A stretch of DNA of 64,000 bases from Tenacibaculum sp. (GTDB taxonomy: Bacteria > Bacteroidota > Bacteroidia > Flavobacteriales > Flavobacteriaceae), in the NCBI GenBank assembly GCA_020631475.1, contig JAHDHE010000001.1, positions 2,114 to 66,113 of the forward strand. The letters are read 5' to 3'. The translations under genes and the position numbers were made by a program. The notes beneath the pieces were generated by a model, which saw only the letters and a program-made list of their open reading frames with translations, did not search any database and was not told the DNA's origin. The stretch's first letter is position 1; each line of letters starts with the position of its first letter. Below are positions 16,554-53,380 of this stretch, piece after piece.

Positions 16554-18017
16554 TTACTTTAAAACTTTATAAATTTCAAACATAGCTAAAGTATCTAATT
16601 CACAATAAGCCAAAAGATTTTTTCTAGTCTGTACTACATCCTCATTAAAGTTATGGTCTGTTACCATTCTACCCCAAGTATCTAAAGCCATAGTGCCATC
16701 TTGCACTTCTAAATCTTGATAAGAAAATTGAGGGCATAAAACTGGCAATACTTTTTTAATAGATATAGAACCACGAAACCTATAATCTACATAATCTTCT
16801 TTAAAAATGTTCATTAAATCAAACATATTGGCGTTCATATAGTTTAAATAATTGGTAAATTGAGGTAGCCAATCTATCATATCTTTATTTTTACCAATTT
16901 CAAAAGGAGCATTCCAAGAAATAAATGTACCTGTTAAACCTGTAAATTCTTGCATTTTAGTAAGCATTTCAAGTGGCAGTTCCATTTTTTTGCCTAACCA
17001 CTCAAAATGTTTTAAATCTCCATTTTTATGAAGAGTATGTATAGATACCTGAAAAACTAAATGTTTATGAGGACTCATACCATTTACTTTTGGTACTGCA
17101 CTAGCATAGGTCTCATAATCTACAAAATGTAAAGGGAATTTAAGTTTTGATAATGTATTTTCAATTGCAGGTTTATTAATAATTGATGTTTCTTGCTTTA
17201 CAGATTCTACCTGAACTTGTTGTTTTATATTAAGGTCAAAACCTAAAGGAATATCTATAATGGCTGTATGGTTATGCTCTACTAATTCCACTACTTTTTT
17301 AGCAGATATTCTACCTATTTCATAAATAGCATACTCAGGTATATCTTTATTAAAATACTTGAAACTGTCACAGTGATTACTTCTGGTTTTATATTTACAG
17401 CTACACTCTTCTTGATTAATCTTCTCTTTATTGATAAAATTTACTGCTGCATTAATTTCATTAACCACAGTAGAATATAAATTATCTAATTCTTCTGTAA
17501 CTTCTGTAATATTTAATAGCTCATTAGAAATAATATCACCTTGCCTTATATATTCTTTATTAAGGTTTATAATTGAAACTTTTGCCACTTTAAGACCACA
17601 TTCCTGTAATACATATTTTTGAAAACAAACATCTTTTAAATGATTATGTTTTTTATCTTTTTTAATACTAGTAGAGGACTTTATTTCATAAATATGATAA
17701 CCTCCATCATCTAACTTTTCTAAAATATCAATTCTTGCAAAAACTCCTTTTCTAGTTACAAATGAGGGTTGAAAAAAGATAGTACTATCAGTACCTAACT
17801 GTTTCTTAGTGTATTCAGGTGTAGCATTTTCAGGTAATTCTATACCTTTTTTAAATAGTTGTTTAGCATATTCTTCTACTTCATATCCTTCTTTAATTAG
17901 TTTTTCTAAAAACAAAGAAAACTCACCCTTAGTATATTCATCTGGCTTATTTTTAAATAACCAAATAGATTCTGGGCAATTGAGATATTGTATAAAATCT
18001 GTTTTGGTCAGTTGCAT
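16554..18017 (-). CDS. DUF2779-like protein: RecB/Cas4-type nuclease region plus DEDD exonuclease-like region
   Basis: GVFARIDILEKLDDGGYHIYEIKSST (PD-(D/E)XK-like), CSCKYKTRSNHC Cys cluster, LHFVDYETYASAVP...CELDTLAMFEIYKVL. Confidence 0.75.
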   Translation of the reverse strand: MQLTKTDFIQYLNCPESIWLFKNKPDEYTKGEFSLFLEKLIKEGYEVEEYAKQLFKKGIELPENATPEYTKKQLGTDSTIFFQPSFVTRKGVFARIDILEKLDDGGYHIYEIKSSTSIKKDKKHNHLKDVCFQKYVLQECGLKVAKVSIINLNKEYIRQGDIISNELLNITEVTEELDNLYSTVVNEINAAVNFINKEKINQEECSCKYKTRSNHCDSFKYFNKDIPEYAIYEIGRISAKKVVELVEHNHTAIIDIPLGFDLNIKQQVQVESVKQETSIINKPAIENTLSKLKFPLHFVDYETYASAVPKVNGMSPHKHLVFQVSIHTLHKNGDLKHFEWLGKKMELPLEMLTKMQEFTGLTGTFISWNAPFEIGKNKDMIDWLPQFTNYLNYMNANMFDLMNIFKEDYVDYRFRGSISIKKVLPVLCPQFSYQDLEVQDGTMALDTWGRMVTDHNFNEDVVQTRKNLLAYCELDTLAMFEIYKVLK

Positions 18018-18020
18018 ATT

Positions 18021-19814
18021 TTATAGTTCAAATATTTCTAAGGCTTTAGTAACTAATTTTTCAGTTCTACTTTCAATATTTTCTTGTTTCCAAGTAGGAG
18101 TGTCTTTTAACTCATCATTTAAAACCAAACCATTATTAAACCCTATACTATTACCATTTTTATCTTTCTTGGTTTGTTTAGCATCTAAAGGCATATCACT
18201 TAATTGAGAATTATAACCTGTAAGCGTTAGGTTACCTAATTTATGTACAAACTTTTCTCTGATTAAATTAGCCGTTTCTTTATCTCCATTAGCTACCATT
18301 TCAATCCAGTGAGGCTTCATGTTTTTACCTTGAGGCAATACATGTTCAATAGTCCAAATAAATTTATTTTTACTTCTTTCATAGAAATTTTTATACCCCT
18401 CTCTATCATTATTTTGTGCTAATTCTAAACTAGACAAAATATACCTAGTAGCTCCTACATTTTCTTCATAAAGATTACCCTTTAATTTTTCTTCAAAATA
18501 TTCATTTGTAGCAGGTTTTCCATATTTAATAAGAGCCTGTTTGACTTCTTGGTAATTATACGAGTCAGCATTGTTTAGCTGTTCAATAATATCCATAAAG
18601 TAATTTGTTAAATCTCTTGTAGGTGGTGTGTCTGTAACATTTCTTCTAATGAAATATCTACATAATAGGTTGATAAGTTCTATTTTTTCATTTTCTGATA
18701 GTTTAAATTTCTTTTCAAGAAATAATAGTAACATATAAGCATCTGCACCATTTACATTTTCTAAATTTCTTAAAGTTCTTATTAATTCAGTAGAATACTC
18801 AGTATTTTCATACTGTATGTTTTTTGAGTATATAATAGAAGTCTCTTCCAATTTTGTAAATATACCTGCTACATCTCTATTTATTAATTGCTCATAAATA
18901 TCAATTAAATTAGACCTTAATGCTTTTGGCTTTCTATCTACTTTTACCTTATCATTTAACCTAAAAGCATTATAATATTGCCTTAAAAACCTTTCCTGCA
19001 CTTTATAATTATCTGTTAAATTTATTAGAATATCATTCCATCTATCAAAATTTTCATCTAAACTTTGGTTATTATCCACTTTTTCTAAGTGTCCTAATAA
19101 TTTATTCTTTATAAGGTCAATAGCAGATAATGGTACACCTCTATTATTTAAAGTTTCAAATAATATAAAAGCATCTGAATGAGTTGCAACATCTATTTTT
19201 ACTAAAGTAGCTGCATTTAATTTGGTTAAAAGACTTTGCACTTTATTAAAGTTAAATAATTTGTTACCTTCTTTGTCTTCTGCATCTAATCTTTCATTAA
19301 AGTATTGAAGAGCTTTAGCAATTCTTCTATTGCCATAATTTTTAGGTTTGTTTAACTTTCTAAAGGCAGGAATAACTACAGAAAAAGCATACTTATAATC
19401 TTCATTATTGCTATTTGAATAAGATGGAAATAGTCTAATAGTTTTATTATCATTAATAATTATTCTGTTTCTTAAAGTCATTAACTCTAATAACTTTTCC
19501 ATATCTTCTTTATCTGGAATATTATCTTGTAAATACCTATATATTGCCAAATAAAACAAACTAATGGTAGTCATTCTTTGTTGTCCATCTACCATTTCTA
19601 AAGTAGCTGGTTTTAAAGGGTCTGGTTGTGTATTTATACAAATGATAGAACCTAGAAAGTGTCCTCCACTACCGTCATTAACATCATCAAAAAGTGCTTC
19701 CCAATTACTTTTACCCCAAGTGTATTCTCTTTGGTATTTTGGTATATGATAAGTGGCTTTGTGGTCTGTGCTATATAATTCTGATAAAGGTTTATTATCT
19801 GTATTTTGTATCAT
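18021..19814 (-). CDS. DUF262 + DUF1524 (GmrSD-like) protein
   Basis: LEMVDGQQRMTTISLFYLA (DUF262 DGQQR motif), C-terminal WTIEHVLPQ...KLGNLTLTGYNSQLSD (DUF1524 HNH). Confidence 0.9.
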   Translation of the reverse strand: MIQNTDNKPLSELYSTDHKATYHIPKYQREYTWGKSNWEALFDDVNDGSGGHFLGSIICINTQPDPLKPATLEMVDGQQRMTTISLFYLAIYRYLQDNIPDKEDMEKLLELMTLRNRIIINDNKTIRLFPSYSNSNNEDYKYAFSVVIPAFRKLNKPKNYGNRRIAKALQYFNERLDAEDKEGNKLFNFNKVQSLLTKLNAATLVKIDVATHSDAFILFETLNNRGVPLSAIDLIKNKLLGHLEKVDNNQSLDENFDRWNDILINLTDNYKVQERFLRQYYNAFRLNDKVKVDRKPKALRSNLIDIYEQLINRDVAGIFTKLEETSIIYSKNIQYENTEYSTELIRTLRNLENVNGADAYMLLLFLEKKFKLSENEKIELINLLCRYFIRRNVTDTPPTRDLTNYFMDIIEQLNNADSYNYQEVKQALIKYGKPATNEYFEEKLKGNLYEENVGATRYILSSLELAQNNDREGYKNFYERSKNKFIWTIEHVLPQGKNMKPHWIEMVANGDKETANLIREKFVHKLGNLTLTGYNSQLSDMPLDAKQTKKDKNGNSIGFNNGLVLNDELKDTPTWKQENIESRTEKLVTKALEIFEL

Positions 19815-19827
19815 ATCCTTTTTAACT

Positions 19828-20844
19828 CTATTTAATATTCCAATTTAACTCATTATTACTTTTAATAATCTCTAATAATTCATCAAAAGATTTTGTAAAC
19901 CATTCTTTTATTGTTTTATCTGAGTTTTCATCATTTAAAAAATCAGCGAGATTCTTAGTTTTATATATACAAGAACCATACTCATATTTTATCAAGTTAA
20001 AATCTGTATTATTAATATCAATATTATTAAACAACTGGTATTGTTCATGGTCTGAATTCAAATATATTTGAGTATTTAGTTGAAGTGTTTCAAATTGAAT
20101 AGAATATAATATTTCTGAATACTTATTGCTTTCAGATTTTAAGACAAATTCATTAAGATGACAAAATCTATTATTCTCTTTTAACTGTTTCCAATTAAAA
20201 TTTCTATCATAATTTTTCGGATAAAACCTATTATTAAATTCATCTTTAGAATTTTCGATATGAAACTCAATAATTTCAATCGATTTATTTAAATTCTCCA
20301 AAGCAAGTAAATTATTTATTTTCAAAGCATTATCCTGCTGCATATTAAATCTTTTTAAAAATTCTATATAGTTATTAATTAATTTGTACTCTGCTGCATA
20401 GAGTTTTAAGAAATTTGCAATTTCAAACCATTTAAATTGTTTAAAATTATAGGCTTCATATTCTCTGTCTAGATTTTTTGGTTCAGAGTATTTTGTACAA
20501 TAGAATAAATATTTTTTCTTATCCGTATAATACAAATCTAATACTCTACCATACCTAAGTAATTGTTCAACCCCTTCTTTTGACTCTACTTTATTCTCTA
20601 TAAAGCAAACATTTTCTTCTCCTATTAAAGCAAAGTCTATAATACAGTTGGTATATTCTTTTAAATCTTTTTTTAATTGAGTTACTACTTTATAATTATC
20701 ATTAGGAAGCTCTAAAAAATTTGTGAATGCTACTTTTATTTCTTCATACAACTTTAAAATACCTGCAAAACATTCTGTATTAAAATCTTCTAAAGGCGTT
20801 TTATTAGAATTATTTTTATACAGATTAAAAAGTTCATTAACCAT
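19828..20844 (-). CDS. PD-(D/E)XK nuclease superfamily protein
   Basis: CIIDFALIGEENVCFIENKVESKEGVEQLLRY matches PDDEXK_4-like motif. Confidence 0.75.
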   Translation of the reverse strand: MVNELFNLYKNNSNKTPLEDFNTECFAGILKLYEEIKVAFTNFLELPNDNYKVVTQLKKDLKEYTNCIIDFALIGEENVCFIENKVESKEGVEQLLRYGRVLDLYYTDKKKYLFYCTKYSEPKNLDREYEAYNFKQFKWFEIANFLKLYAAEYKLINNYIEFLKRFNMQQDNALKINNLLALENLNKSIEIIEFHIENSKDEFNNRFYPKNYDRNFNWKQLKENNRFCHLNEFVLKSESNKYSEILYSIQFETLQLNTQIYLNSDHEQYQLFNNIDINNTDFNLIKYEYGSCIYKTKNLADFLNDENSDKTIKEWFTKSFDELLEIIKSNNELNWNIK

Positions 20845-20874: not shown

Positions 20875-23553
20875 TTACAAACCTTTTAAAACCTCTATAA
20901 CACTATGAGCTGTGTAGGTGTTTTCTACTTTTGCACTTTGAAAAACCATAAAATATTTGAATTTTTCACCTGCTAATTTTTCCCAAGTTTTACCTAAAAT
21001 ATTTTTACTTCTACTATCTTCATTTACTCTATCGTCTCCCTTAGTTTCAAGTAAAATGATGTTTCCTTTTTTAGTGTAAAGTATAAAGTCTGGATAGTGA
21101 TTAGAACTATATCCATTTAAAGCATATCCTTTTCCTCTTTCAAAGTTCCTATGCCAAAAAACAATATTATCTAAAGAAGCAACCTCTAAAATCATAGACT
21201 GCTCATAATTATTCATTTTTCCCTCTCTTTCATACAAAGACTTATTGATGTTAGTACTAAGGTTTAAAGGAGTAATTTTATCTGGAAACTCAAAATTATC
21301 TCTAACTGTTATTTTATTGCTATCTATTAAAACCTTAAACCTTTCTTTAGCATAAGCAGATGATAAAATATTGATTTTATCTTTTATTCTTTTTACATAA
21401 ATAAAATCATTCTCTACTATATCTCTAATTTGTTCATTGGTTAAATTATCAAAAACTCTATTGACATATTTTTTCAGCTCTTGCTCCTTAATAGGCGTCA
21501 TATCTCCTAATTTAGAAACCACCATACTACTTACTTGATTTATTTGCGATTCTTTGGGAGTAGATAAAATATTATCAATTAATATATCCTTAGCTCTTTT
21601 ATTAATATTTTTAACTATAGCTGTTCCCTTTACCTCATCAAAATCTACTGCAATAATATCTTTAGAAATTTCATCAAAAGTTACTTCTGTATTATATTTA
21701 GACAGCTTAAAACCATCTAATAAGGCATTTTTATGTAATAGTTGCCATTCTTCATTTAACTCAGGAAATAAACCACTTTGTAAATCATCTTTTTTCTCTA
21801 TGAAAAACTGAGGAAGCTTAATTGCATTTGCCATTTCACTATATTCCTCAATCATTTTATAAATTGGTGGTGTGGTTTTCATAACTTCTGTAAATATTGA
21901 GGTAGTATCATCTATTTCTAGTTCATTTACTTTTTGGTCAAATTCCTTTCCTTGTTCTTCTGCTTTTTGAGTAATCGTAGTAAGTAGTGGATTATCTTTT
22001 TCTATACTTTCTAAAGTTACTTCTTCATTAGGATTATATTGTATCTCTGAAACATTAAAATCTTCGTCGCTAGCAGATGTATTTTCTATTTTTGAGTCTT
22101 CTTGCTCAAATAAATCTTGTGTTAATACCTCATTAGGAGTTAGTATTTCTTCTGGTTGTTCTTCAGCATAATAATCATCTTTACTAAACCCTGCTTCTTG
22201 TAAACCTTTTACTATGTTTTCTAAAGTATCATTAAATTTTGCAGATGCAGTTAACACAAAAGACATATTCAATAAAGCATTTTGGTGTTTTACTACATAA
22301 GGTTGTCTTAATACCCTACCTAAAATTTGCTCTACCTCAACAGCGGAAGATTTATCTGCTAAAGAAGCAAGAATATAGGCATTTGGGCAATCCCATCCCT
22401 CTTTTAAAGCATTTACAGTAATAATATATCTTACCTTACAGTCTTTAGCACCTAAATCAATACCCTTTAATTCATCTATACCACTGGTTTTAATTTTTAT
22501 TTGTTCCTCTGGTATTTGTAAGGCTACTAATTTTTCTTTTATTCTTTGAAATGTAGTATTGTTTTTTCCTTTAATGTTTGACTGTGCTTGAAATAGTATG
22601 ATAGGTCTAATGTATTTACCTGTAGCTTTTTCTTCTTCATTAGCTATTAACTCTAACTTTCTTTGAAGATGTAATGCACTAGTAATAACCTCCTCTTTTT
22701 TATGGTGGTTATACACTACAACAGGTAATTTTACCATGTTTTCTTTTTTCAACGCTAAAGCATTTACGTAAGAAATAATATTGCTATTCTCTTTTGGTGT
22801 AGCTGTTAAATCTAATACTAATGATGGATTTAAATTATTCAGCATTTCTACACTTAAATCACTTTCTGCATTGTGGCTTTCATCTACTACTACAATAGGA
22901 TTCAAACTTCTTATAACATTAATTAATGCTGTTTCATCTGTATCTGGAATAACTAAATATTTATCTACAATGGTATTTCTAAAAGACTCTAAAGCACCAT
23001 TTTCTTGATACACTTTTCTATCATCCTTCTTTCTACTATTAATTCTTAAACTACTAAAGTTGAAAACAAAAATATTGAGCTGTTCTGTTACTGAGGTTGG
23101 GTTAAAATTTGCTCCTTGTAGTAGCTGGTCTTTTTCATATACCTCAACTCTATTACCAAACAGCGTGTTTAATTTTTCTCTATATGGATGATTGGAATTT
23201 GATAAATTATTAACCGTTTGTTGTAATAGGTTAGACCAAGGTACTAACCAAACTACAGCTTTTGCATTTCCTTTATTAAAATGTTTGTTAATACTATGTA
23301 AAGCATTTACTGCTATAAAAGTTTTACCTCCAGCAGTTGGAACTTTAACAGCAATATGTACCGCTCCAGGTATATTATTTTTATATGGTTTCATTCCTTC
23401 AAAAGAACCATCTAGTTGCGGAGTATAAGGCATTCCTAGTTTGTCTTCCCAATACTTATTATAAGCCTTTGCAGGAGTTGGGTTCTTTTGCACATATGCT
23501 AAAAACTTTTCTAAGTCTTTAATTACTGAATGCTGGTATGGTTTTAATTCCAT
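20875..23553 (-). CDS. type III restriction enzyme Res subunit (DEAD/DEAH helicase + endonuclease)
   Basis: VPTAGGKTFIAVNAL, VVDESHNAESD, LTATPKEN, IEQ/VEQILGRVLRQP, C-terminal HYPDFILYTKKGNIILLETKGDD. Confidence 0.92.
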   Translation of the reverse strand: MELKPYQHSVIKDLEKFLAYVQKNPTPAKAYNKYWEDKLGMPYTPQLDGSFEGMKPYKNNIPGAVHIAVKVPTAGGKTFIAVNALHSINKHFNKGNAKAVVWLVPWSNLLQQTVNNLSNSNHPYREKLNTLFGNRVEVYEKDQLLQGANFNPTSVTEQLNIFVFNFSSLRINSRKKDDRKVYQENGALESFRNTIVDKYLVIPDTDETALINVIRSLNPIVVVDESHNAESDLSVEMLNNLNPSLVLDLTATPKENSNIISYVNALALKKENMVKLPVVVYNHHKKEEVITSALHLQRKLELIANEEEKATGKYIRPIILFQAQSNIKGKNNTTFQRIKEKLVALQIPEEQIKIKTSGIDELKGIDLGAKDCKVRYIITVNALKEGWDCPNAYILASLADKSSAVEVEQILGRVLRQPYVVKHQNALLNMSFVLTASAKFNDTLENIVKGLQEAGFSKDDYYAEEQPEEILTPNEVLTQDLFEQEDSKIENTSASDEDFNVSEIQYNPNEEVTLESIEKDNPLLTTITQKAEEQGKEFDQKVNELEIDDTTSIFTEVMKTTPPIYKMIEEYSEMANAIKLPQFFIEKKDDLQSGLFPELNEEWQLLHKNALLDGFKLSKYNTEVTFDEISKDIIAVDFDEVKGTAIVKNINKRAKDILIDNILSTPKESQINQVSSMVVSKLGDMTPIKEQELKKYVNRVFDNLTNEQIRDIVENDFIYVKRIKDKINILSSAYAKERFKVLIDSNKITVRDNFEFPDKITPLNLSTNINKSLYEREGKMNNYEQSMILEVASLDNIVFWHRNFERGKGYALNGYSSNHYPDFILYTKKGNIILLETKGDDRVNEDSRSKNILGKTWEKLAGEKFKYFMVFQSAKVENTYTAHSVIEVLKGL

Positions 23554-23613: not shown

Positions 23614-23642
23614 TTGAGATTTAATTTTATATTATATATTTG
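23614..23642 (+). promoter_or_regulatory. Bacteroidota-type promoter, plus strand
   Basis: TTG-N18-TATATTTG matches TTG/TAnnTTTG consensus. Confidence 0.6.
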
Positions 23643-23647
23643 CAACG

Positions 23648-23711
23648 TGTTCATCCTACCATATGGAGGAAGGAAATCGAAAAACGCAAGTCTTGATACT
23701 CTGCGTTTTTT
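23648..23711 (+). ncRNA. candidate small structured RNA between mod and res operons
   Basis: Promoter at 23614-23642; hairpin TCCTaCC-ATAT-GGAGGA at 23654-23670; terminator AAAAACGCA-N13-TGCGTTTTTT at 23680-23711; opposite strand to both flanking operons. Confidence 0.5.
23680..23710. terminator. bidirectional terminator (sRNA on plus strand, mod operon on minus strand)
   Basis: AAAAACGCA-AGTCTTGATACTC-TGCGTTTTT. Confidence 0.75.
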
Positions 23712-23716
23712 GCGTT

Positions 23717-24232
23717 TTATAACACCTCACTTAATTTTCTTTTATACTTATTCTTAATCTTATTTTTATCCCTACCTCTTAAATAATACGCTGTAAGAAA
23801 GTAGTAGTATTCTTCATTATCTGCTTCTGGATTTGTTTTAGGCTCTAGTACAATTACATAATATTCATCTTCATCATAAATATAGGTTCGCTTTCCATTT
23901 TTATCTTTTGCACTAAAAATTAAAACATTCTCTTTCTTTTTCTCTTCTATATGATATTTCACCCAATGAAGTCTTTGCGACCTATGAATATCAAAATCTC
24001 TCTTTTTTGTTTTTTCATCAACAACTACAGTAGTTAAATGTTTAAATAAAATATCTACTGGCAGCTCATCTTCTCTATTTATAGGTCTAATTATTTTGCC
24101 TCTAAAAGCAAATCCTTCATTATCTCTAATATCTCTATCAAAAATCCTCATTAACGAGGCATTTCTATCAGGAATACTTAAACCACCAATATCCAATAAA
24201 CTGTTATATCTCTTTAATAAATTCAGGGGCAT
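23717..24232 (-). CDS. hypothetical protein, possible BECR/RelE-like nuclease
   Basis: HRSQRLHWVKYHIEEK...NGKRTYIYDEDEYYVIVLEPK...YYYFLTAYYLRGRDKNKIKNKYKRKL resembles the BECR-fold strand pattern. Confidence 0.5.
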   Translation of the reverse strand: MPLNLLKRYNSLLDIGGLSIPDRNASLMRIFDRDIRDNEGFAFRGKIIRPINREDELPVDILFKHLTTVVVDEKTKKRDFDIHRSQRLHWVKYHIEEKKKENVLIFSAKDKNGKRTYIYDEDEYYVIVLEPKTNPEADNEEYYYFLTAYYLRGRDKNKIKNKYKRKLSEVL

Positions 24233-24234
24233 AG

Positions 24235-24903
24235 TTATCTTAAATCAATAAAAAATAAATTAAACTCTTTATCATATGAAGTTTGAGTTAATGATTGGTT
24301 AGTATGATGCTTTATTCTATTAATCAACTTTACTTTAGCTTCTACTCTTGGGGTGTGATTTAGGTTATAAGATAAAGCTCCCATAAGCACATCTGTTATT
24401 TGTAACAAAATACTTTCGTGAGACCTAATATTTTGAATATTTCTAAAAACACCATACTTGGTATTTAGAATCTCTTTTAACTTTTCTACCTTATAAGCAC
24501 TTAAATCATCCTTTATATCTAAATAAACATTATATACATAGTTTGACTTGATATTATGATTTAACAAGTAATAAAACATCTTATAGTAAAACGTATCAAA
24601 ATCTTGATTAAAAGAACCATTATTAATTTTAGACTTATCTATTACAATAGCTCTAAATCTTAAATCGGTAGCAAAAAAATAGTCTATAAGTTCTTTATAA
24701 AACTCGTATTGAGAACTAGACACATTACTCCACTTTATTTCTCCTGCAAAATGATGCTTTTCTTTTAGTGTTTTGATATACTGCGTATGTAATTTTATTT
24801 GCGGATAAGCACAACTTACATAACTAAGTAACATAAAATTTTGATGGTCGTTTTCTAAATGACAACTTTCATCACAATATAGATTAAATGTTTTTGATGC
24901 CAT
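24235..24903 (-). CDS. DUF3800 domain-containing protein
   Basis: NLYCDESCHLENDHQNFMLLSYVSC N-terminus plus ILLQITDVLMGALSYNLN near the C-terminus. Confidence 0.85.
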   Translation of the reverse strand: MASKTFNLYCDESCHLENDHQNFMLLSYVSCAYPQIKLHTQYIKTLKEKHHFAGEIKWSNVSSSQYEFYKELIDYFFATDLRFRAIVIDKSKINNGSFNQDFDTFYYKMFYYLLNHNIKSNYVYNVYLDIKDDLSAYKVEKLKEILNTKYGVFRNIQNIRSHESILLQITDVLMGALSYNLNHTPRVEAKVKLINRIKHHTNQSLTQTSYDKEFNLFFIDLR

Positions 24904-24907
24904 AACT

Positions 24908-26581
24908 TTAAAATCTTGTAATATCTCTTGGTATTTTTTTAAATACTATATGGTATTTATCCATTAACTTTTGGTCTAACAAACACAAATCTGCATAAAT
25001 AATATATTGACTAGCTTTTGTTTTTAGGGTTCTTAAATAGCTTTCATCTAATGTTGTTAAACTATCCTTTTCATAGTAAAAATAGTAAGCTGTATCATGC
25101 TTTTTACCTAATAAAAATTTTTCTTCTTGCTCTTTAAAAACATCTTTGGTTTCTGTGTACCAAACATACTCTAGTATTTTAGATAACGGTACATCTTCAT
25201 TTAGCATTTTATCTGCTTTGAATAGTGGTTGCCCTAACTCATAATAACTAAAATCTCCTCCAGTACCTTCAACTGCTTTTTTATCTTCTCCATAACCGTT
25301 AATTACTCTTTTTACTCTTTCAGCAGTAATGTCATTCGCGTAGTTTTCCATTTCTACTAAAATGAATTTTCTATTACCTCCATCTTGTTTATTTAGGTTT
25401 AAAACTGCATGTGCAGTAGTACCAGAACCTGCAAAAGAATCTAGGATGATTGCTTCTTTGTCTTTTATAGCAACATTAATCAGATATCTAATTAAATCTT
25501 TAGGTTTAGAGTAATCAAAATTTACTCCTATTGCACTTAATTCTTTTGAACTATGTCTATTCTCAAATTCAGAAATCAAATTAGTAGGTGTTTGTCCTTC
25601 TTCCTGTCTTTCTTTCAGCCATATTTTAGTATAGATATTCCATTTTGCTGGTTTAAGTTCTGAGTCAATTAAAACAGCATTTTTTGTTTTCTTATAAACA
25701 ATATTCCCTTTTAATTTTTCCTCTTTATATCTGTCAGCACTCCATCTCCAACAACCATCCTCTTTGTCTGGTAATACTTTTGCTGCATCTTCAGATTTTT
25801 CAGGCATTTTTTGACCAGGTGGAATAACTAAAGAACCATCAGGGCATTCAATAAAATACCTCTGATTTGGTCTAGAGTCTAAAGAAGATTGATATAAACC
25901 AAAAGCCCTATATCTTTCACCTTTTCTTTCACCCTCAGTTTCAACTTGGTTATATAGTTTTTTCACTAATTTTTCATCTAAGTCTGCTTTAAAATCTGAA
26001 ATTTTAGATTTATTCTTAGCATAAACTAATATATAGTCAATATTTGGCGAGAAATAATTCCCTTTGTTTCCTCCTGTCTTCATAACTCTAGAAACAATTC
26101 CACACTTGTTGTTAAAACCAAAAAGTTCATCACAAAGAAGTTTTAAACTCGCAATTTCATCATCTCCAATACTTATAAAAATAACTCCATCATCAGAAAT
26201 TAGTTTTTGTAAAAGCTTTAATCTAGGATACATCATGCATAACCATTTGTCATGCCTTGATAAATCTTCACTTTCTTTACCTACTATTTTACCTAACCAT
26301 TTTTTTATTTGAGGATGATTAACATTGTCATTATATTTCCACTCTTCATTACCTGTATTGTATGGAGGGTCTATATAAATACACTTTATTTTGCCTTCAT
26401 ATTCTGGCAATAAACTTTTAAGTGCTTCTAAATTATCACCATGTATAATTTTATTATCAGAAATAGTCTCTTTACTTTCTTTACCATTGGCAAAGGTGTA
26501 TTGTTTTTCTAATATTTTATAAGGCACATCTTGGTGGTGGTTAATTACCTTTTCTTTTCCTATCCAATTAAGTGTTGGCAT
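24908..26581 (-). CDS. type III site-specific DNA methyltransferase (Mod)
   Basis: IYIDPPYNTGNEEWKYND (DPPY) and ILDSFAGSGTTAHAV. Confidence 0.95.
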   Translation of the reverse strand: MPTLNWIGKEKVINHHQDVPYKILEKQYTFANGKESKETISDNKIIHGDNLEALKSLLPEYEGKIKCIYIDPPYNTGNEEWKYNDNVNHPQIKKWLGKIVGKESEDLSRHDKWLCMMYPRLKLLQKLISDDGVIFISIGDDEIASLKLLCDELFGFNNKCGIVSRVMKTGGNKGNYFSPNIDYILVYAKNKSKISDFKADLDEKLVKKLYNQVETEGERKGERYRAFGLYQSSLDSRPNQRYFIECPDGSLVIPPGQKMPEKSEDAAKVLPDKEDGCWRWSADRYKEEKLKGNIVYKKTKNAVLIDSELKPAKWNIYTKIWLKERQEEGQTPTNLISEFENRHSSKELSAIGVNFDYSKPKDLIRYLINVAIKDKEAIILDSFAGSGTTAHAVLNLNKQDGGNRKFILVEMENYANDITAERVKRVINGYGEDKKAVEGTGGDFSYYELGQPLFKADKMLNEDVPLSKILEYVWYTETKDVFKEQEEKFLLGKKHDTAYYFYYEKDSLTTLDESYLRTLKTKASQYIIYADLCLLDQKLMDKYHIVFKKIPRDITRF

Positions 26582-52081: not shown

Positions 52082-53380
52082 TCAATCAAAAAAACCACTC
52101 TCCATCACTATTAAAGCTTCTTCTCTTTTTTCAATTCTAACATACTTTAAAAACTCTCGCTCGGTTTTATGTCCAGAAAAGAGCATGATATTTTGAATTG
52201 GTTTTTGATCTATATAATGATTTGTACAAAATGTTCTTCTCGCAGTATGTGTTTTAACTAAATCATACTTTGGAATTCCTTCTCTTACTAACCTCCCTCC
52301 TTTTGTATAAGAAACTGTTATCAATTCTTTAAACCCAGCTTTTTTACATGCTAACTTTATATTCTCTCTTAAAATCGGCTCGCTTAGTTTTGGTGGAAAA
52401 CCTCCATCATATCTATCCATTACCTTTTGAATCTTAGAAGTAATTGGAATACGAACAATCGTACCTGTCTTTTTCTGATGTATCTTAATTACTTCACGAC
52501 CTTTAATGACCTCAATATTTTCTTCTGTTAAACCATTATAATCACTAACTCTTTGCCCAGTATAACAACCTATCAAAAAAATATCCCTTGCCAATTCTAG
52601 TTTTGATCTTTTACTAAAATCTTCATTAGCTAAGATTTCTAATTCTTCTTTAGTTAGAAATATCTCTGTTGTAGTTTCTTTTAACACTTTAAAGCTTCTA
52701 CTTTTAAAAATTGAATTATCAGTAATCCCATTAGTTAAAGCGTCATTGAGAAAAACTTTAAGATTCTTAATATGTTTACCTACACTATTTAAACTATATC
52801 CTTCCTTCTCTAAAAACTGAACGAACCCTCTGTAAAAAGACAAATCAATATCATCAAACCTTAATAAGTGCCCATTTGACTTCTCATACTTTTCTAACAT
52901 TTTAATTGTTTGGTTACAAGATCTTGTTGTCTCTTTTTTAATTTGACTTTTCTTTTGCTCTAATACCTTTCTAGAGTAATAAATCAATTCTTTATTTTTC
53001 TCCTCTTCTCTGTCTGTTTCGTCTTCTCCTTTTATCTTTTTTTCTATTAAAGATGATAGCAATTTTACATCTATAAAATCGCTCACTTTTTTGATTTTAG
53101 TAAGTTCCTCTTCTGCATAAGATTGGATATTATTTATAAATGCATTAACCTCATAGGCATTCACAACCATTCCTTTCCCTGTTTTAACTCTTTGCTTAGT
53201 TACATCCCAATTCTTTAAGCTACACTTATAACCTATACTCTTTTTAAAACGTCTTCCTTTTGAGGAAAAATGCAACATAATCAAACTCTCTTTTTTAGGA
53301 GTTAACTCTAAACTTTTAATCGATTCTTTTAAACTAAATCTAATTACACCATGTGTACTTTGTAATACTAAATTGCTCAT
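52082..53380 (-). CDS. tyrosine-type site-specific integrase (island B)
   Basis: 432 aa; IGCYTGQRVSDYNGL, VKTHTARRTFCTNHY, MLFSGHKTEREFLKYVR. Confidence 0.95.
   Translation of the reverse strand: MSNLVLQSTHGVIRFSLKESIKSLELTPKKESLIMLHFSSKGRRFKKSIGYKCSLKNWDVTKQRVKTGKGMVVNAYEVNAFINNIQSYAEEELTKIKKVSDFIDVKLLSSLIEKKIKGEDETDREEEKNKELIYYSRKVLEQKKSQIKKETTRSCNQTIKMLEKYEKSNGHLLRFDDIDLSFYRGFVQFLEKEGYSLNSVGKHIKNLKVFLNDALTNGITDNSIFKSRSFKVLKETTTEIFLTKEELEILANEDFSKRSKLELARDIFLIGCYTGQRVSDYNGLTEENIEVIKGREVIKIHQKKTGTIVRIPITSKIQKVMDRYDGGFPPKLSEPILRENIKLACKKAGFKELITVSYTKGGRLVREGIPKYDLVKTHTARRTFCTNHYIDQKPIQNIMLFSGHKTEREFLKYVRIEKREEALIVMESGFFD

Follow-up and report, generated by a model that had tools for sequence, protein, structure and literature searches.

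The original paper on the DUF3800 RNA motifs is reportedly that of Weinberg et al. in 2017. RNAs associated with DUF3800 have been catalogued as motifs (Rfam 15, PMC11701678), and DUF3800 itself has an RNase H fold that has been linked to non-coding RNAs (PMC10910872). In PADLOC, the two-protein system PDC-M04 is carried as a phage-defence candidate. The annotation of the rlfA-rlfB genes of phage P1 gives a possible association with lytic replication; the RNase H fold of RlfA was already noted in 2013 (PMC3710099), and in a CRISPRi screen both rlfA and rlfB were non-essential for P1 plaques (PMC10695390). In a Clostridioides difficile prophage, AbiF is neutralised by the RNA RCd22 both in cis and in trans (PMC12373285), and Blower et al. 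described a pseudo-ToxI RNA that lets phiTE evade ToxIN (PMC3475682).

We analysed a 64,000-nucleotide stretch of Tenacibaculum DNA, referred to here as the window. On its minus strand, two adjacent genes encode M04A, a DUF3800 protein of 222 aa (24235..24903; PADLOC PDLC04353, 2.9e-81; Pfam DUF3800, 7.8e-13), and M04B, a candidate RNase toxin of 171 aa (23717..24232; PADLOC PDLC04358, 3.7e-69). With both PADLOC models matched, the genes adjacent and M04A preceding M04B, the pair has the protein make-up of PDC-M04, which is a candidate system only, no anti-phage assay of it having been found in the literature searched. The neighbouring genes, also on the minus strand, are mod (24908..26581; Pfam N6_N4_Mtase, 2.1e-34) and res (20875..23553; Pfam ResIII, 5.6e-15) of a type III restriction-modification system. 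Further defence-type genes are stacked after res on the same strand (16554-20844), namely a gene with a weak PDC-S26 match (19828-20844; 3.4e-12), one for a GmrSD/Orf5-type restriction enzyme (18021-19814; 4.7e-67) and a DUF2779 gene with a Cas4-like N-terminus (16554-18017).

Between res and the gene pair, the sequence-only reading had proposed a small RNA on the plus strand, and this is borne out by the covariation of its structure and by the conservation of the RNA and its place in relatives. The elements that it had named are all present in the sequence: a promoter of Bacteroidota type, read directly (23614..23642, plus strand; TTG at 23614-23616, an 18-nt spacer and TATATTTG at 23635-23642), the hairpin TCCTaCC-ATAT-GGAGGA and the terminator stem. 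The structured RNA, matched by model R1 at 23649..23722 of the plus strand (cmsearch, 82.6 bits), is composed in order of helix P1 (23650-23652, TTC, paired with 23673-23675, GAA), an internal loop, the P2 hairpin that P1 encloses (23654-23670; stem 23654-23660/23665-23670), a linker, the terminator hairpin P3 (23680-23691/23698-23710) and the tail TGCGTTTT. It is about 65-75 nt long and convergent with the DUF3800 and 171-aa gene pair. The transcript probably ends near 23711-23720, and the M04B stop codon overlaps the end of the RNA (M04B from 23717, RNA to 23722).

Taken by itself, the promoter string stands at chance level, with 4 matches in the AT-rich window against 2.4 expected and 23 of 100 shuffles as high; yet almost all M04 loci of Bacteroidota have a TAnnTTTG-type element just 5' of their RNA. 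The P3 hairpin was not among the output of a generic terminator scan of the window. We nevertheless judge the segment to be above chance because relatives share the TAnnTTTG-type element and have the RNA in the same position, and because the structure covaries. The suggestion that the same stretch is a gene for a 19-aa peptide did not survive comparison: the ORF is present, yet ATG is found at its column in 4 of 66 aligned rows and ATGGAGG in only one, that of the window.

Covariation was assessed in two alignments. In a MAFFT alignment of 14 main-type RNAs, which was not fitted to the model, compensatory changes were observed at 16 of the 21 consensus pairs. The larger alignment, of 65 distinct RNAs, was fitted to the covariance model and hence leans towards structure; here 96.1% of cells pair, as against 72.5% in shuffles, double-sided changes occur at 18 of 21 pairs, and the covariation score is 0.703, compared with 0.243 for shuffles and at most 0.19 (0.186) when slid. 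The constant design consists of P1 (YUC/GAR), the internal loop A(U)/AAG, P2, a UCG linker, the terminator hairpin P3 and UUGC(G)UUUU, the pairs and loop of P2 being variable in sequence across the RNAs. Conservation of 23640-23711 was found beyond the terminator, a point on which the sequence-only reading had let its proposal stand or fall. Its option of a guide RNA was rejected, a variable spacer being absent and sequence and structure fixed. Neither the window-type nor the P1-type RNA matches any Rfam family, and the DUF3800 RNA models of Rfam gave no match to the window RNA even at E 10, nor any in its relatives. RefA9, BTnc231 and Atu_C9 were also discarded as the identity of the RNA, their Rfam scores being at chance level. 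The covariation and the fixed place beside DUF3800-M04B identify a structured RNA near a DUF3800 gene.

A DNA search of 300 family genomes returned two true relatives (L003, 79% over 120 bp; L004, 76% over 93 bp); shorter matches (L005-L021), mostly to the AT-rich upstream half, were left out. In both relatives the RNA is convergent and lies behind two genes, one for DUF3800 and one resembling the 171-aa gene, and mod and res are missing. Since the pair and the RNA are kept without mod and res, the RNA travels with the gene pair, and its supposed tie to the restriction-modification genes falls away. Type I or type III restriction-modification genes adjoin the M04 modules L023, L026 and L027 and the orphan L061, as in the window. 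Every M04B locus examined, drawn from order, phylum, viral contig, plasmid and phage searches, carries a hairpin RNA pointing at the M04B stop codon, and the divergent M04B clades (L026/L027/L042, L028, L039/L040) have divergent RNAs in the same place.

To characterize the two proteins we used structural models (M04A, pLDDT 90 and pTM 0.89; M04B, pLDDT 89 and pTM 0.84). Foldseek matched M04A to RNase HII (E 1.6e-5, probability 1.00), and residues D11, E12, D129 and D171 are invariant in 20 sequences. M04A is therefore predicted to adopt an RNase HII-like fold, with DEDD as the acidic set expected of RNase HII. For M04B, colicin D tRNase domains made up five of the top six Foldseek matches, all weak (probability 0.51-0.77, E 0.13-0.29), and comparison with the PDB by sequence gave no match supporting colicin D. 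Because of these E-values and the want of sequence support, we treat 'colicin D-like RNase' as a lead; the model weakly suggests a candidate RNase toxin with a colicin D-like fold.

In a covariance model scan of 396 phylum genomes at a threshold of 64 bits, the RNA was found in 17. Within 1.5 kb of it, the pair was intact in five genomes (one being the window), only M04B fragments were present in four and neither was found in eight. In the genus with most orphans, the RNAs are identical to the RNA of the intact locus at 74-78 of 78 positions (95-100%), and the following 520 nt, which is the place of M04B in intact loci, are down to 15-64% identity. Within the order of the window, four of the five RNA-carrying genomes have the RNA at an M04B locus. 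Retention of the RNA while M04B decays is the appearance that would be expected of a retained antitoxin, to judge from these comparisons, and the orphan RNAs may serve another partner.

The viral set was assembled by IMG/VR pattern scans and the covariance model, near-duplicates being mostly removed. The RNA is present in 33 viral contigs (above 50 bits in 29) in which tblastn detected neither M04A nor M04B in the DNA examined, many of the records being fragments. The search itself works, since both proteins were detected in six other viral contigs. No M04B was found when 32 whole viral records were searched with a profile; since many records are fragments, this does not establish for every contig that M04 is absent. 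Pattern matches that lacked P2 pairing and gave no model match were dropped (e.g. L085, L088, L091, L098-L101, L105, L111 and L112, and likewise L116, L121, L123, L126, L127 and L130). When RNAs were compared with plasmids and phages by blastn, that of L034 gave no match and that of L074 chance-level matches only.

In several T4-like contigs the RNA lies directly 5' of a T4-type terminase gene, which is followed by a T4-type portal gene, and in L083 it adjoins baseplate gp25. The model detected two tandem RNAs in 11 viral contigs, usually one of the GUUC/GAA type together with one of another type; in L072 and L075 the first of the two has an insertion of ~70 nt in P3, with P1, P2 and the base of P3 kept. 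The sequence TATTTAT is located 11-15 nt 5' of the first RNA in 13 of the 33 contigs, against a background of 1.8% of 30-nt windows. In these contigs the motif GTATTTAT stands in sense orientation 5' of 94 of 174 ORFs, compared with 4 for its reverse complement, and on this basis GTATTTAT, with TATTTAT, is probably a phage promoter.

The same arrangement is found in phage P1 and in P1-like plasmids. One such plasmid (L138) encodes two proteins that match M04A (7.8e-96) and M04B (5.3e-52), and RlfA and RlfB of P1 are 99% identical to them. Hence P1 rlfA-rlfB (L140, NC_005856 51740-52992) are relatives of PDC-M04A/B with an unannotated convergent RNA (52903-52992), model R1 finding the RNA at P1-type loci with 34-35 bits. 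The RNA of P1 type also has chromosomal copies in E. coli, namely in L141, L146 and about 49 records with identities of 80-90%. The two chromosomes that were checked (L141 and L146) carry it as an orphan, with neither M04A nor M04B inside 2.5-3 kb. Cultured Vibrio, Mammaliicoccus, Streptococcus and Bacillus phages gave weaker matches to the P1-type hairpin, with no M04 in the 4-5 kb examined around them. In Bacillus phage BUCT083 (L144 1990-2250), a non-coding stretch between HU-type and YonK genes holds two copies of the hairpin motif, and beside them is a sub-threshold match to DUF3800-VIII (33 bits, cut-off 40.2). It is possible that this stretch is an array of several antitoxin-like RNAs.

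The RNA is structured and conserved, has a convergent place by M04B, survives past the decay of M04B and occurs in solo and tandem copies in phages. The simplest account, given its fixed pairing with a candidate RNase, its retention after loss of that protein and the solo phage copies, is that the RNA is the third component of PDC-M04, acting as an antitoxin to the RNase toxin, and that the phage copies are counter-defence mimics. We consider this account to be somewhat better than evenly probable, and the comparative evidence likewise favours the earlier suggestion that an RNA next to an RNase-like gene could be an antitoxin or a regulator. The RNA would be transcribed from its own promoter and would fold into a protein-binding hairpin (P1-P2, with the conserved A(U)/AAG internal loop) and a terminator hairpin. 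It would bind M04B, alone or together with M04A, so that the RNase is kept silent. Possible roles of the RNase HII-like M04A are to process the RNA, to turn it over or to sense a phage nucleic acid. Infection that shuts off or degrades host RNA would lead to loss of the antitoxin and release of M04B, which would stop growth or phage production, and phages would respond by producing the RNA themselves. Binding, neutralisation, toxicity, the trigger and counter-defence by the phage copies are steps that we infer. Among the points that count against the antitoxin reading, the fold match of M04B is weak (E 0.13), with no PDB entry supporting it by sequence, and the RNA, unlike that of type III toxin–antitoxin loci, runs towards the toxin gene instead of preceding it within one operon.

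An invariant RNA-protein pairing would also be found if M04A and M04B formed a ribonucleoprotein nuclease with the RNA as its essential cofactor or activator, in which the RNase H-like M04A could be the RNA-dependent effector. Phage copies would then be decoys that titrate the nuclease or occupy it unproductively, which accounts for these copies as well as the antitoxin reading does. However, a cofactor would be of no use once M04B is lost, yet the orphan RNAs have stayed 95-100% identical, and we regard this explanation as unlikely. The RNA might instead be a type I-like antisense regulator of the 3' end of the M04 mRNA, a regulation that phage copies would mimic. It is convergent, its end overlaps the M04B stop codon, and there is precedent in convergent type I pairs such as txpA/RatA. 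Nevertheless, P1-P2 lies outside the overlap and is kept in phage and orphan copies that lack M04B sequence, and the compensatory changes reflect selection on intramolecular pairs, making an antisense role quite improbable. The adjoining terminase genes in T4-like phages raise a further alternative, in which the RNA serves phages or mobile elements otherwise (in packaging or host RNA turnover, for example) and the M04 proteins sense it as a trigger, as would suit a sensor role for M04A. Bacteria would then hold the trigger with its own promoter beside the effector in every locus, and phages would be expected to drop a triggering RNA; we hold this to be very improbable. Finally, the segment might be only a bidirectional terminator with a chance promoter, its RNA being without function. 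P3 does adjoin the M04B stop codon, and the promoter string taken singly is no more frequent than chance would allow. This explanation has almost negligible probability, being effectively refuted because P1 and P2, which lie beyond P3, covary and because phages and orphan loci have the RNA in solo copies.

If the antitoxin reading is extended beyond the window, M04 would be a widespread RNA-antitoxin defence, made up of an RNase HII-like protein, a colicin D-like RNase and a structured RNA and present also in P1. Unrelated phages that infect Bacteroidota, Vibrio and Bacillota would maintain copies or arrays of the RNA alone as counter-defence, and the Rfam DUF3800 RNAs would be antitoxins of other branches. 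We put forward this wider proposal tentatively, at a little under an even chance.

With respect to known systems, PDC-M04 and P1 rlfA-rlfB share the same two proteins in the same order, P1 also having the convergent RNA, but the PADLOC models of PDC-M04 are protein-only and the RNA is annotated neither there nor in P1. The Rfam families DUF3800-I to -IX (RF02969, RF02968, RF03075 and others) likewise comprise small structured RNAs, whose names reflect an association with DUF3800 genes, although no model among them fits the window-type or P1-type RNA. Our searches of the open-access literature, preprints excluded, turned up no account of an RNA belonging to PDC-M04 or rlfAB, nor of copies carried by phages. 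The three-part M04 system and the phage RNA arrays thus appear to be undescribed in the sources searched, whereas DUF3800-linked RNAs and phage mimicry of antitoxin RNAs each have precedent. AbiF with RCd22 resembles M04 in its conserved structured RNA, which neutralises a defence toxin (PMC12373285), but AbiF belongs to the Abi_2/AbiD/F family, is linked to ancestral Cas13 and is without an RNase HII-like partner; moreover, binding and neutralisation are experimental for AbiF/RCd22 and predicted from sequence comparison for M04. In type III toxin–antitoxin systems the RNA is upstream in the toxin operon, usually as tandem repeats, whereas here it lies downstream in convergent orientation, has a promoter to itself and is present in bacteria as a single copy; M04 also has the extra RNase HII-like protein, and neutralisation by its RNA is a prediction. 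Orphan RNA motifs, a protein-only defence candidate and two 'replication' genes of P1 would acquire a role that is testable in E. coli with P1. Like ToxIN and phiTE (PMC3475682), M04 combines an RNA with a candidate RNase toxin and has antitoxin-like RNA copies in phages. Natural and tandem RNA mimics in many phages would widen the phiTE precedent into a common anti-defence strategy, and the RNA model provides a means of finding such mimics in phage genomes.
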